27,282 nucleotides of DNA, taken from positions 1 to 27,282 of IMG/VR virus record IMGVR_UViG_3300026097_000082. One strand, written 5' to 3'. The translations under genes were made by a program, and so were the position numbers. The notes under the pieces are model-generated. The model did not search any database and had not been told where the DNA came from. It worked only from the letters and a program-made list of their open reading frames with translations. This document shows, one piece after another, positions 2,938-5,878 of this stretch (positions are counted from its first letter, which is position 1; every line of letters begins with the position of its first letter). The DNA comes from a virus.

Positions 2938-3248
2938 TTCACGGGTTTCTTTACGGCATCCAGTTTGCCATCACATTTGCCATCGGCACACTGGTATTGG
3001 TCGGTCTTTTCAGGGGCGTTTGGGAAACAGCATCCCAGAGCAAAGGGCTGTTTTGGGCTATCGGGTGGTCATCGTACTTGGTCAGCTACTCGTCTTTTGT
3101 CAAAGCCATTGACGGGCCTCCATCGCCAGTTTTTGAGGTGTTCGCCACGGTGTCTCAATTAGTTTTCTACGCATTCGTTTTGACCTACATCCTCGTTTAC
3201 TTAATCACCAAGTGGAGCGACCATGAAGATTTCACAGCAGGGCATTGA
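2934..3248 (+). CDS. Small membrane protein in lysis cassette
   Basis: A 104-aa protein whose ATG overlaps the previous stop (ATGA) and whose 3' end overlaps the endolysin start by 26 bases, so all three are tightly coupled. Three hydrophobic stretches are seen, near residues 8-30, 38-58 and 68-93, rich in Phe, Tyr and Leu, with a short charged tail. It could be the true holin, an antiholin or another lysis regulator. No family is recognised. Overlaps on both sides argue that it is a genuine gene. Confidence 0.65.
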   Translation: MIHGFLYGIQFAITFAIGTLVLVGLFRGVWETASQSKGLFWAIGWSSYLVSYSSFVKAIDGPPSPVFEVFATVSQLVFYAFVLTYILVYLITKWSDHEDFTAGH

Positions 3249-3666
3249 CCTTATCAAAGACTTAGAGGGGTTTCGCTCTAAAGCCTATGCCGACCCTGCT
3301 AGTCGCACTGGACTGCCCATTACCATTGGATACGGCAGGGCGCATGGTGTGGTGTTGGGCGATGTCTGTACCCCCGCCCAAGCCGAGGAGTGGCTGAAGG
3401 AAGATTTGGAAGCAGTTGAGGACTGCATCAACTCTTATGTCAAAGTGCCACTGTCTCAGCATGCGTTCGATGCACTGGCATCCTTTACCTACAACCTTGG
3501 TTGTCACGACCTAGAGAAAAGCACCCTTTTGCGACTCTTAAATGCAGGTGATCGCAAAGCCGCTGCTGACGAATTCCATCGGTGGGTCTACAGCGGTGGG
3601 CGAATCGTCAACGGTTTAGTCAACCGCAGACAAAAGGAAGCTGATGTTTTTAAGCACGGTTATTGA
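3223..3666 (+). CDS. Endolysin, GH24 (T4/P22-type) lysozyme
   Basis: A 147-aa muramidase that hydrolyses the beta-1,4 bond between N-acetylmuramic acid and N-acetylglucosamine. The N-terminus holds the Glu-Gly-Phe-Arg catalytic segment (E15), the aspartate of Tyr-Ala-Asp-Pro (D24) and the Thr-Ile-Gly-Tyr-Gly motif (T34), the E-D-T triad of glycoside hydrolase family 24. The Asp-to-Thr spacing is a few residues longer than in T4 lysozyme. There is no signal peptide or signal-anchor segment, so it should be a cytoplasmic endolysin needing a holin. The C-terminal Asn-Arg-Arg-Gln-Lys-Glu motif is also typical. Its end overlaps the Rz-like gene. Confidence 0.93.
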   Translation: MKISQQGIDLIKDLEGFRSKAYADPASRTGLPITIGYGRAHGVVLGDVCTPAQAEEWLKEDLEAVEDCINSYVKVPLSQHAFDALASFTYNLGCHDLEKSTLLRLLNAGDRKAAADEFHRWVYSGGRIVNGLVNRRQKEADVFKHGY

Positions 3667-4084
3667 ATTCCTGCGTTCTCGTGCGCTAACGCTGGTAGGC
3701 ATTGGTATAACTTTCGTTGCTGGTGCTGCCGTGGGATGGCTACACGAACACGACAAGCTAGTTGCGTACCGTGCGTCCGTGGAATCAATTGCCGCCGAAC
3801 AGGAGATTAAAAACCGTGAAACAATTGCCAAGCATAATCAAACCACTCGCGACATCCATAAGGAATATGCGAACGCCCTTGATCGTCTGCATCAGTACTA
3901 TAATGGTAGGCTGCGGGACAACAAAAATACCCGTGGAATGCCCGCCAATTCCACAGCCGCCAGCAGAACTTCTAACCCCTCCCCCAACCAACCTCTTACC
4001 ACCACAGAACGACTAGAGTGCGCTGAGTCCGTACTCAAGTTGATCGAACTACAGAAATGGGTGCGTGAAATCACGTCCCAGTAG
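3644..4084 (+). CDS. Rz: Rz-like i-spanin
   Basis: A 146-aa inner-membrane spanin candidate. It has one N-terminal membrane segment (about residues 14-33) followed by a long charged, helix-prone periplasmic region (about 38-92) and a low-complexity Ser/Asn/Pro stretch. Start ATG 3644 has an AAGGAAG site and overlaps the endolysin gene by 23 bases, the usual arrangement. In Gram-negative hosts i-spanin and o-spanin fuse the inner and outer membranes as the last lysis step. An Rz1-type lipoprotein is encoded inside it in another frame, which strongly supports the call. Confidence 0.88.
   Translation: MFLSTVIEFLRSRALTLVGIGITFVAGAAVGWLHEHDKLVAYRASVESIAAEQEIKNRETIAKHNQTTRDIHKEYANALDRLHQYYNGRLRDNKNTRGMPANSTAASRTSNPSPNQPLTTTERLECAESVLKLIELQKWVREITSQ
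3867..4016 (+). CDS. Rz1: Rz1-like o-spanin lipoprotein, nested in Rz
   Basis: A 49-aa protein in the +1 frame relative to Rz and entirely inside it. ATG 3867 has AAGGA just upstream. The frame is open earlier (from 3762), but starting at 3867 puts a proper lipoprotein signal at the N-terminus: a short hydrophobic stretch ending in the lipobox Met-Val-Gly-Cys. The mature part is short and very proline-rich (Cys-Pro-Pro-Ile-Pro-Gln-Pro-Pro and further Pro-Pro pairs), exactly as in Rz1 proteins. It should be anchored in the outer membrane and bind the Rz periplasmic domain. Confidence 0.9.
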   Translation: MRTPLIVCISTIMVGCGTTKIPVECPPIPQPPAELLTPPPTNLLPPQND

Positions 4085-4088
4085 GTCT

Positions 4089-4141
4089 TGACCGTGTTGG
4101 TCAGGATGTGGCTACGACATTTCGTAGTATTGGTAAGGAGG
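4089..4141 (+). promoter_or_regulatory. Two small hairpins and a strong ribosome site before the secreted trio
   Basis: Between Rz and the first secreted protein are two inverted repeats: TGACC/GGTCA (4089-4093 with 4099-4103) and CTACGA/TCGTAG (4112-4117 with 4122-4127, 4-nt loop). A near-perfect Shine-Dalgarno AAGGAGG follows at 4135-4141, seven bases before the ATG. No convincing sigma70 promoter is seen. The hairpins may terminate weakly, stabilise the mRNA 5' end or bind a regulator. Confidence 0.5.
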
Positions 4142-4147
4142 TTTCTG

Positions 4148-4615
4148 ATGAAGAAATCACTTTTAGCCGTTGCGCTGTCTTTCGGGGCAGTGAGCGCGGC
4201 ACATGCCTTTAGCGTGGATACTACCGGGCGCGTTGAAAACGCCTGCGTGTTCACCGAGGTGTCAGCGGGTGACTTTGGCTCTAACGCCATCGACCCAACC
4301 GCGCTGTCAACGTCTCACGTTGGCGGATCGGGTCCAGTCGTGTCGTTTACCTTTACGGGTCAACCCACTTTGGCCATCACTGGCCCAACCTCGTTTAGCA
4401 CTGCGCCAGAATTGGGCGAGATCGTGCCAGTTTTCACGACTCTCGCTTCAACCACGGCAAAAGGCTCGCTCACCTTTTCGGGCAACTCGGCCTCGACTGT
4501 CTACACGACAGGTTCTGGTGACACTGTGAACCTCGGTTTGCAAGTGTCTACTGGCTCAGAGACCAACTTCCCGGCTGGTGACTACGCCGCAGCCACTACG
4601 CTTACTTGCTCGTAA
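4148..4615 (+). CDS. Secreted pilin-like (fimbrial-subunit-like) protein
   Basis: A 155-aa protein with a clear Sec signal peptide (Met-Lys-Lys, hydrophobic core, Ala-His-Ala cleavage site near residue 20). The mature part is Thr/Ser/Gly/Val-rich and beta-type. It has Cys near its start (Val-Glu-Asn-Ala-Cys-Val-Phe) and a second Cys in the C-terminal Ala-Gly-Asp-Tyr-Ala-Ala-Ala-Thr-Thr-Leu-Thr-Cys-Ser, a terminal beta-strand pattern like fimbrial subunits and spore-coat-U/DUF4402-like proteins. ATG 4148 is fixed by AAGGAGG and the signal peptide. It heads a three-gene run in which every product is exported. Such a protein is not a standard phage virion part. A conversion factor or surface-modifying protein is inferred, not shown. 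Confidence 0.7.
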   Translation: MKKSLLAVALSFGAVSAAHAFSVDTTGRVENACVFTEVSAGDFGSNAIDPTALSTSHVGGSGPVVSFTFTGQPTLAITGPTSFSTAPELGEIVPVFTTLASTTAKGSLTFSGNSASTVYTTGSGDTVNLGLQVSTGSETNFPAGDYAAATTLTCS

Positions 4616-4618
4616 GCC

Positions 4619-5029
4619 ATGGCTAAGTCCAACATCCTAGTTGGGCTTCTGTGCGCTCTCACGGTTTCGGCTGTGGGGGCGCATGGAATCTCCCCAACCC
4701 GCTTACAAGCCCCGTCTGGGTCTAAAGTCATCGGCTTCCAATTCAAAGCCATGAACTTCTTGAGTCGGGCGGCCACTTATCGGGTCGAGTGCTACCGAAA
4801 TGCGCTTGCTTTTCCAGTCCCATGTTTGGCCATGCCAAAGCAATTCAGGCTATCAGCCAATGGTTCTAGACCCTTTCGAGTGCGTCTAGATACCAATGGC
4901 AAGGACGGTCTGTATTACGTTTGTACAGCCTACATACCGGAGCCGGGTGAGGCATCAGTTATTACCCGGACGTGCGCCAGATTCGGTGTCGGTGTTGACC
5001 CTGAAACCAGAGGGGCAGAACCAGAATGA
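4619..5029 (+). CDS. Secreted protein resembling a PapD-like chaperone N-domain
   Basis: A 136-aa protein with an N-terminal signal peptide (cleavage after Val-Gly-Ala near residue 21). The mature start Ile-Ser-Pro-Thr-Arg-Leu and the segment Pro-Lys-Gln-Phe-Arg-Leu-Ser-Ala-Asn-Gly-Ser-Arg-Pro-Phe-Arg-Val-Arg resemble the first Ig-like domain of periplasmic pilus chaperones (a Pro-x-x-Phe-x-Leu strand followed by a conserved Arg strand). Four cysteines are present. It is about half the length of a full two-domain chaperone. It begins three bases after the pilin-like gene and overlaps the next gene (ATGA), so the three are one operon. The resemblance is by pattern only and could be wrong. Confidence 0.6.
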   Translation: MAKSNILVGLLCALTVSAVGAHGISPTRLQAPSGSKVIGFQFKAMNFLSRAATYRVECYRNALAFPVPCLAMPKQFRLSANGSRPFRVRLDTNGKDGLYYVCTAYIPEPGEASVITRTCARFGVGVDPETRGAEPE

Positions 5030-5451
5030 GATTGCTCTACGCGCTCGCATTCGCTCCATGTGTGGCAATGGCAGACTTGGGACAACTGAGCCTGCCTGCG
5101 CCCCCGTCATGGCCAACAGGTAACGACAAGGTTCGCAGTGCCGATGGTGTGCAGTGCGAGACAAGCACGACCCCACGCGACTGGTACATGGACATTGGGA
5201 TTGTAGGTGGCCGAGGCAATGGCCTTGGGTCAAACTCCAACCCGACAATCATTGATGTCAACAGCACGTTCGTGAACAACAATTTTGAGCGCAACACGAT
5301 GGCTATCTATGCGCGGGTGGTCATCAACCTCGACAAACCCAAACCGCACATTGATTGTGGTCGTCTGTATCAACTAGAAATTGATCGCCTCAAGATGGAA
5401 ATTGAGTACCTGCAAATGGGTCAGGGCGTGGCAGGTGGGGTAGTGGAGTAA
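5026..5451 (+). CDS. Secreted protein of unknown function (141 aa)
   Basis: Starts on an ATGA overlap with the chaperone-like gene. It has a signal peptide (Ala-Met-Ala cleavage site near residue 16), a Gly/Asn-rich middle (Gly-Gly-Arg-Gly-Asn-Gly), two cysteines that could pair, and a C-terminal helix with heptad-like Leu/Ile spacing (about residues 115-132). No family is recognised. Being the third exported product in a coupled operon, it may partner with the pilin-like and chaperone-like proteins. Its stop codon lies directly against the first structured RNA element. Confidence 0.7.
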   Translation: MRLLYALAFAPCVAMADLGQLSLPAPPSWPTGNDKVRSADGVQCETSTTPRDWYMDIGIVGGRGNGLGSNSNPTIIDVNSTFVNNNFERNTMAIYARVVINLDKPKPHIDCGRLYQLEIDRLKMEIEYLQMGQGVAGGVVE

Positions 5452-5543
5452 GCGGGGTTGGATGAAGCACCATTCAGCCCGAAGTAGCGGGGCGGGATTG
5501 CCCGTAACTTCACAGGCGGCTAAGACCTGCTCCCCGCTTTTTT
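5452..5543 (+). ncRNA. Structured RNA element, copy A, ending in a terminator
   Basis: The outer stem GCGGGG/CCCCGC (5452-5457 with 5532-5537) is followed by six T residues, so it doubles as an intrinsic terminator for the secreted operon. Inside are GGATGAAGCACC (5460-5471), a middle hairpin (GAAGT 5481-5485 with ACTTC 5507-5511, plus inner CGGG/CCCG) and a hairpin CAGG/CCTG (5513-5516 with 5526-5529) whose 9-nt loop is CGGCTAAGA. The same plan, with the same 5' element and an identical 9-nt loop, recurs at 5582-5675. AGC of the 5' element could pair with GCT of the loop. I do not recognise the class. Confidence 0.7.
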
Positions 5544-5581
5544 CCATTGTAAATAAAATCATCGACACGACTTAATAAGTC

Positions 5582-5675
5582 GCGGGCCGGGATATAGCAC
5601 CCTTTCGTTTAACGAACGGTCGTGACCTCGTTCGCAACTTTATCCTCGGCGGCTAAGACCGAGCGCCCGCTTTTT
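5582..5675 (+). ncRNA. Structured RNA element, copy B, ending in a terminator
   Basis: The outer stem GCGGGC/GCCCGC (5582-5587 with 5665-5670) is followed by TTTTT. It contains GGATATAGCACC (5590-5601), a middle hairpin (CGAACG 5613-5618 with CGTTCG 5629-5634) and a hairpin CTCGG/CCGAG (5645-5649 with 5659-5663) with loop CGGCTAAGA, identical to copy A. Compared with A, the sixth outer pair is C-G instead of G-C and two pairs of the last hairpin are changed on both sides. Structure is therefore kept while sequence drifts. A small inverted repeat (5568-5573 with 5577-5582) sits just upstream. Confidence 0.7.
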
Positions 5676-5831
5676 ATTCCAGTTCTCCAGGTGTGGCGTA
5701 AATTTGCCATAAATGCTTTTCGCTCCCCCTGTATAGATGTCAAAACGCATAAACAGATTTCGATGATGCTGTCAGTGCGAAACCTAGTGTTTATGCGGCT
5801 TTCCAGCTATTTGTACCCACTTTTAACGTGC
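5676..5831. other. Non-coding attP flank with a 10-bp inverted repeat
   Basis: No convincing gene lies between the second RNA element and the tRNA fragment. An inverted repeat CGCATAAACA (5746-5755) / TGTTTATGCG (5788-5797) is present, with a related CATAAA at 5709-5714. Their place beside the attachment core makes them candidate integrase arm-type or excisionase binding sites. That is inference from position only. Confidence 0.4.
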
Positions 5832-5878
5832 GACTGTTAATCCGTAGGTCACTGGTTCGAGCCCAGTTTGGGGAGCCA
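5832..5878 (+). other. attP core: 3' half of a tRNA-Asn(GTT) gene
   Basis: These 47 bases match the anticodon loop (CTGTTAA, anticodon GTT at 5836-5838), the 3' anticodon stem strand, variable loop, T-arm (GGTTCGAGCCC) and acceptor end with CCA of a bacterial tRNA-Asn. The 5' half is absent: bases before 5832 do not form the D-arm or the 5' acceptor strand, so it is not a working tRNA. Tyrosine integrases commonly insert at tRNA 3' ends, with the phage carrying this segment to restore the gene. The integrase gene ends 17 bases away. The expected attB is a host tRNA-Asn gene. Confidence 0.88.

Follow-up and report, generated by a model that had tools for sequence, protein, structure and literature searches.

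An operon of three exported proteins, carried by the virus contig analysed here and by many other phages, probably represents a chaperone-subunit system that operates in the envelope of the infected cell without an usher. The predicted fold of its second product, F2, is firmly that of a PapD-family chaperone N-domain standing alone, while the model of the first, F1, is suggestive of a pilin; the third, F3, is a new family.

Operon layout and exported products

The window, i.e., the whole stretch of DNA analysed, is a linear IMG/VR virus record of 27,282 bases. It contains the following features:

3223..3666, plus strand: phage lysozyme, context (Pfam PF00959, E 2.6e-44)
3644..4084, plus strand: Rz-like spanin, context (phrog_2466, E 2.6e-4)
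3762..4016, plus strand: embedded Rz1-like spanin, context (phrog_3198, E 1.8e-4)
4135..4141, plus strand: ribosome binding site of F1, AAGGAGG (sequence)
4148..4615, plus strand: F1, exported subunit of 155 aa, suggestively pilin-like (sequence, alignment, fold model)
4619..5029, plus strand: F2, exported single-domain chaperone of 136 aa, PapD-type by predicted fold (sequence, alignment, fold model)
5026..5451, plus strand: F3, exported protein of 141 aa, new family (sequence, alignment)
5448..5545, plus strand: terminator-like structured element 1 (fold against shuffles)
5576..5684, plus strand: terminator-like element 2, which has GGCGGCTAAGACC in common with element 1 (fold not above shuffles)

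A first-pass annotation of this DNA had described three coupled genes, each with a signal peptide, behind a very strong ribosome site, and this observation holds: F1 and F2 are separated by 3 nt, F2 and F3 overlap by ATGA, the AAGGAGG motif ends 6 nt before the F1 start, and all three products are positive by a simple custom signal-peptide rule. The genes for F1 and F2 and those for F2 and F3 overlap in most of the 145 IMG/VR loci that carry the trio. The upstream neighbours in the window are the lysozyme gene and two overlapping Rz/Rz1-like spanin genes; downstream, beyond the two terminator-like elements, an integrase gene is located on the opposite strand (by eye). At a greater distance, positions 449-1489 encode a reverse transcriptase (PF00078, 7e-11; phrog_1423, 2.8e-93), which is preceded by an Asn-rich frame, as in diversity-generating retroelements (240-1489, by eye).

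The operon was also said to end in a structured RNA. Element 1 agrees with this description (-40.5 kcal/mol, z -2.0, with 5 of 200 shuffles as good), but element 2 does not stand out from its shuffles (z -0.53, 52 of 200 as good), and Rfam holds no family for the window elements. The ends of both resemble intrinsic terminators. The GGCTAAGAC motif of these tandem elements is present in both window copies and near position 2487 of the related locus L133, and a similar motif was seen by eye near 500-620 of L005.

Across the relatives collected, the signal-peptide rule was positive for 96 of 101 F1, 86 of 93 F2 and 91 of 93 F3 sequences, compared to 193 of 860 other ORFs from the same loci, counts that are biased because a hydrophobic N-terminus was one of the criteria by which start codons were picked. 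Each family carries an invariant pair of cysteines in its non-redundant alignment, namely Cys33 and Cys154 in F1 (31/31), Cys102 and Cys119 in F2 (38/38) and Cys44 and Cys111 in F3 (34/34). When all distinct sequences collected are considered, the part beyond residue 22 contains exactly two cysteines in 95/101 F1, 89/93 F2 and 92/93 F3; the window F2 is one of four F2 sequences with four cysteines. By eye, no lipobox cysteine follows the signal peptide in the window F1, F2 or F3, and the F3 C-terminus appears charged and helix-like.

Predicted folds of F2 and F1

The structure prediction and fold search proposed by the first-pass annotation yielded neither folds unrelated to pilins and PapD nor clear homology to virion proteins, the two outcomes named beforehand as speaking against its reading. 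For F2, which had been likened to the N-domain of a PapD-like chaperone, model, Foldseek and VIA agree. The AlphaFold2 model (pLDDT 89.0, pTM 0.78) gave 187 Foldseek matches in the PDB at E<=0.001, the best 50 of which are all chaperones of chaperone-usher systems; Caf1M is the top match (E 2.7e-8), and DraB and SafB are also among the matches listed. In the VIA structure comparison, DraB ranks highest (Z 11.3, rmsd 3.2, 109 aligned), and major sperm protein domains reach Z 9.3-9.7. The single Ig domain of F2 (136 aa) is accompanied by no second chaperone domain, and its relatives span 84-150 aa, the 84-aa one being a cut-off sequence.

Sequence comparisons did not retrieve this relationship. 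The alignment of the F2 profile with four ordinary PapD-family chaperones was collinear and not significant (prob 1.3, E 0.038), none of the 38 F2 sequences matched Pfam PapD models at E<=0.1, and PDB sequence searches retrieved no chaperone or pilin. A fold search of F2 in BFVD was uninformative: most of its 12 matches at E<=0.001 are Ig-like proteins whose names say little.

In all 38 sequences, the invariant cysteines of F2 are located on the two final strands of the predicted model (97-106 and 117-124). The last strand is hydrophobic at positions 114 (97%), 118 (87%) and 122 (92%) and basic at 117 (92%, 35/38) and 121 (95%, 36/38). In the PapD chaperone, R8 and K112 are the cleft-anchoring residues. 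In the sequence alignment, F2 residue 28 is Arg in 7/38 and Tyr in 28/38 sequences, so that an equivalent of PapD Arg8 looks to be absent from most F2.

The fimbrial likeness proposed for F1 was upheld in part. Its AlphaFold2 model (pLDDT 84.7, pTM 0.71) is closest to pilin domains, with the PapG pilin domain as best Foldseek match (E 2.2e-3), followed by FimF (1.6e-2) and Csu pilins (2.6e-2 to 4e-2), but the list mixes pilins with other beta-sandwiches and contains none at E<=0.001. VIA Z values do not exceed 6.9, and FimG (6.4) is tied with integrins, toxins and adhesins. It is because of these unequal Foldseek and VIA results that the chaperone fold is regarded as firm and the pilin-like fold as suggestive. 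Here too, profile searches were negative: the F1 profile showed no significant match to SCPU pilins (E 0.061, 18 columns), Pfam pilin models matched none of the 31 F1 sequences at E<=0.1, and the cut-off of the SCPU model PF05229 was reached by 0/31.

Behind a conserved Ala20, F1 is hydrophobic at positions 23 (90%), 25 (87%) and 29 (97%) and has Gly27 in 26/31 sequences; the P4 site of Pap is described in PMC3960871 as accepting glycine only. As judged from the alignment, the F1 N-terminus thus fits the alternating pattern of pilin N-terminal donor strands, and this pattern, together with that of the last F2 strand, would strengthen the case for a chaperone-pilin pair.

Distribution in phages, marine contigs and bacterial chromosomes

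Chaperone-usher-like parts had been called abnormal for phages, a statement that is not supported, since hundreds of phage contigs carry the trio. Among 50,697 phage records, tblastn with the window F1 and F2 found nothing at E<=1, and marine-type F1 and F2 found nothing in phage records at E<=0.01. A weak match (E 7e-3) was obtained with the window F3 in 181 Vibrio phage records, where F3 occupies the third position of a trio that agrees with that of the window in order and sizes. The Vibrio F1 and F2 were each found in 179 records, all from Vibrio phages. The trio-bearing records that were read span unrelated phages, including T5-like Demerecviridae (pVp-1, Thalassa, VPG01), Queuovirinae (BP15) and further Vibrio phages of 58-61 kb and 79-83 kb; for BP15 the reading covered F2 and its surroundings, because the match sits at the start of the record, and in D93 F3 is not annotated as such. 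Cultured Vibrio phages with the trio include pVp-1, Thalassa and 252E42.2. The Vibrio phage F1, F2 and F3 correspond to PHROG 25895, 25455 and 37374, all of "unknown function," and are "hypothetical proteins" in GenBank. The F3 of the window (1.5e-6), L027 (1.3e-7) and L025 (7e-5) match phrog_37374, which was the sole match of the window trio in Pfam, NCBIfam and PHROGs, F1 and F2 staying below their own families. Comparison of window and Vibrio profiles gave prob 82 and E 1e-5 for F2 and prob 47.5 and E 1.9e-4 for F1, both single-comparison E-values.

Scans of IMG/VR with F3 profiles returned 379 and 405 relatives, 80 of each being kept. F1, F2 and F3 occur in that order in 145 of 156 loci (L049-L204), some of which are overlapping stretches of one contig, and the order is complete in 132 of the 133 loci in which F3 is present and the upstream sequence exceeds 1.3 kb. 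Since the same families recur in the same order in 145/156 loci, the arrangement is more than chance. After removal of identical cores and loci shorter than 6 kb, 81 loci were left, mostly of the marine type. Upstream of the marine trio, conserved, exported-looking proteins of ~184 aa (66/81) and ~290 aa (75/81) are encoded; downstream lie a coiled membrane protein (72/81), a second membrane protein (58/81) and lysozyme-like genes (43 and 16 of 81, labeled by eye). In L027 (3607-4963), the ~184-aa protein is phrog_20531 and the ~290-aa protein has no family.

L006, L005, L131-L133 and L017 are the loci nearest to the window. The order in L131 and L017 is fibre, two small membrane proteins, lysozyme, Rz, F1, F2 and F3; L017 also has a 348-aa Ntn hydrolase-like protein (4826-5872, by eye) between phage fibre and lysis genes. 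In a Vibrio cassette common to unrelated phages (L007-L015), the trio is accompanied by two large fibre-like genes, by the lipobox-like phrog_16916 and by a gene encoding 70 aa. Throughout, the labels holin, endolysin, collagen-like fibre, ribokinase and citrate synthase (for neighbours), Ntn hydrolase and repressor were assigned by eye without a family search. No description of the trio was found in the literature searched, which comprised titles and the beginnings of abstracts, most subscription papers being outside its scope; term searches within PMC13320782, PMC10272388 and PMC11332146 gave nothing relevant to it.

The trio also resides in bacterial chromosomes. A genome scan with F3 identified two Comamonadaceae MAGs with the order F2-F3-F1 adjoining citrate-cycle genes, and one phage contig inside a Rhodobacteraceae bin. 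Overall, F3 was present in 2/299 Comamonadaceae genomes, 9/398 genomes of a phylum sample and 20/151 genomes of the family of G353, which we guess to be alphaproteobacterial. In all six loci read from the 20 positive genomes of this family, F1-F2-F3 is followed by a second F1-like gene (F1'). Of three other chromosomal loci, L236 and L237 show F2-F3-F1 and L238 shows F1-F2-F3, the F1 match being weak in L236 (E 8e-3) and also in L237. Since its flanking genes differ between loci, the chromosomal operon can be regarded as an independent unit. One genome of the Comamonadaceae sample, G291, contains two F3 copies, one of which carries an internal stop.

In agreement with the first-pass annotation, no usher gene was found: PF00577 matched 0 of 18 phage records including the window, several of them fragments, with a positive E. 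coli control. The usher test covered 11 chromosomal carriers (G704, G769, G745, G835 and G801 lie outside this set), eight of which had no match at E<=0.001 and three of which had matches elsewhere in the genome.

Possible roles and comparison with known systems

Export by the Sec pathway and disulphide formation of F1, F2 and F3 may be assumed because of their signal peptides and invariant cysteine pairs. In the proposed mechanism, the last strand of F2 would complete the open Ig fold of F1 by donor-strand complementation, a step suggested by the fold and the sequence pattern. The N-terminal donor strand of F1 might next allow its transfer to F3 or to a further copy of F1; with no usher available, F1 would remain in the periplasm or the outer membrane. 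In the least certain step, the late-made trio would alter or mask surface receptors and thereby keep other phages as well as the phage's own progeny off the dying cell or its debris. Judged by position, late lytic expression is likely, because the neighbours are fibre and lysis genes. For the same reason, the action in a lysogen envisaged earlier finds no support in the window or its relatives, and the first-pass interpretation is thus sustained in its structural guess rather than in the oddity or the lysogenic role it ascribed to the trio.

Masking of receptors is the preferred function because small periplasmic phage proteins can act in this way, PMC9586334 and PMC12685063 describing T5 Llp and Rtp45, respectively, as excluding superinfection from the periplasm. 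Taken as the role of the trio, it is nevertheless doubtful. Superinfection exclusion proteins are usually early, according to PMC9586334, and the position of the trio, which suggests late expression, counts against it. In addition, the fibre-like proteins of D93 and pVp-1 are 78% identical, while F1 (48%) and F2 (52%) are no closer than in other pairs; in this one informative pair, fibre and trio sequences would seem not to co-vary, which also argues against receptor masking. The full explanation, a late, receptor-masking chaperone-subunit system of the envelope, is accordingly put forward as a tentative one, with somewhat less than an even chance of being right.

An involvement in lysis, by weakening the envelope or linking outer membrane and cell wall beside holin, endolysin and spanins, would account for the position of the trio directly after lysozyme and Rz/Rz1 in the window and, by eye, in L017, L131 and L133. 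Annotated holin and endolysin genes follow it in pVp-1 and Thalassa, as do membrane proteins and lysozyme-like genes (by eye) in marine phages. However, the window already encodes both spanins, no lysis genes adjoin the chromosomal copies (by eye), and a chaperone fold suits assembly rather than membrane attack, which leaves this role improbable. Somewhat less is to be said for cargo derived from bacteria, an adhesin or thin fibre on the surface that changes the adhesion of the infected cell. The F1-F2-F3-F1' operons in 6/6 loci of G353's family and the presence of F3 in all three genome samples (20/151, 2/299 and 9/398) are in line with such an origin, but host adhesion would be of little gain to strictly lytic Vibrio phages, and the strong retention of the trio in phages suggests a use in the phage cycle. 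It is still less probable that F1 is a virion part that folds in the periplasm and joins the tail fibres after lysis: two large fibre-like proteins are encoded directly upstream in the six Vibrio cassettes compared, yet virion proteins that assemble in the cytoplasm would not be expected to have signal peptides and disulphides, the fibre-trio comparison of D93 and pVp-1 speaks against it, and no virion proteome was found in the literature searched. Finally, the absence of significant profile matches, the weak F1 fold match and the scores of major sperm protein domains against F2 could indicate a mere common Ig-like fold and some other periplasmic mode of the trio, an explanation of lower probability again, given that the best 50 of the 187 F2 matches all come from the chaperone-usher pathway and that a pilin-like partner invariably accompanies F2.

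The envelope chaperone-subunit system would be a minimal set, kept without usher or two-domain chaperone in T5-like phages, Queuovirinae, other Vibrio phages, marine contigs and chromosomes. If true, phages would gain an envelope machine and bacteria an unrecognised subunit system. To our knowledge, all described donor-strand assembly involves ushers and two-domain chaperones. A bolder version, rather unlikely as a whole, is an usher-independent donor-strand machine of three small proteins, widespread in ocean phages and present in bacteria as the four-gene chromosomal operon, which would exclude other phages late in infection by forming a short fibre, cap or plug within the outer envelope.

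Compared to known systems, the trio would be a variant chaperone-subunit system and not a chaperone-usher system, because the usher and the two-domain chaperone were searched for and not found, while the PapD-type N-domain fold of that pathway is present in the predicted F2 model. FGL systems (Caf1M/Caf1, DraB, SafB/SafA) are among the closest known ones and have in common with it the F2 fold, two cysteines placed on the final two strands of the N-domain, a small number of subunit types and donor strands with alternating hydrophobic residues; PMC4133393 describes a disulphide between strands F1 and G1 of FGL chaperones. FGL systems differ in having a two-domain chaperone and an usher, whereas the trio has one domain, no usher and an additional F3, and is phage-borne; their long loop between strands F1 and G1 (average 24) contrasts with ~10 residues (107-116) in F2. 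Archaic Csu pili and spore coat U (SCPU) pilins resemble F1 in its C-terminal G-x-Y pattern and appear in its Foldseek list, but F1 has no SCPU Pfam match and carries invariant cysteines at strand 1 and at the extreme C-terminus. T5 Llp and Rtp45 are small phage proteins of the outer membrane that act from the periplasm, as the trio may do; they are lipoproteins with unrelated folds, whereas the trio comprises three proteins without a lipobox (by eye). In T5-like Vibrio phages, the trio is joined by a lipobox-like fourth gene (by eye), which invites comparison with T5 Llp.
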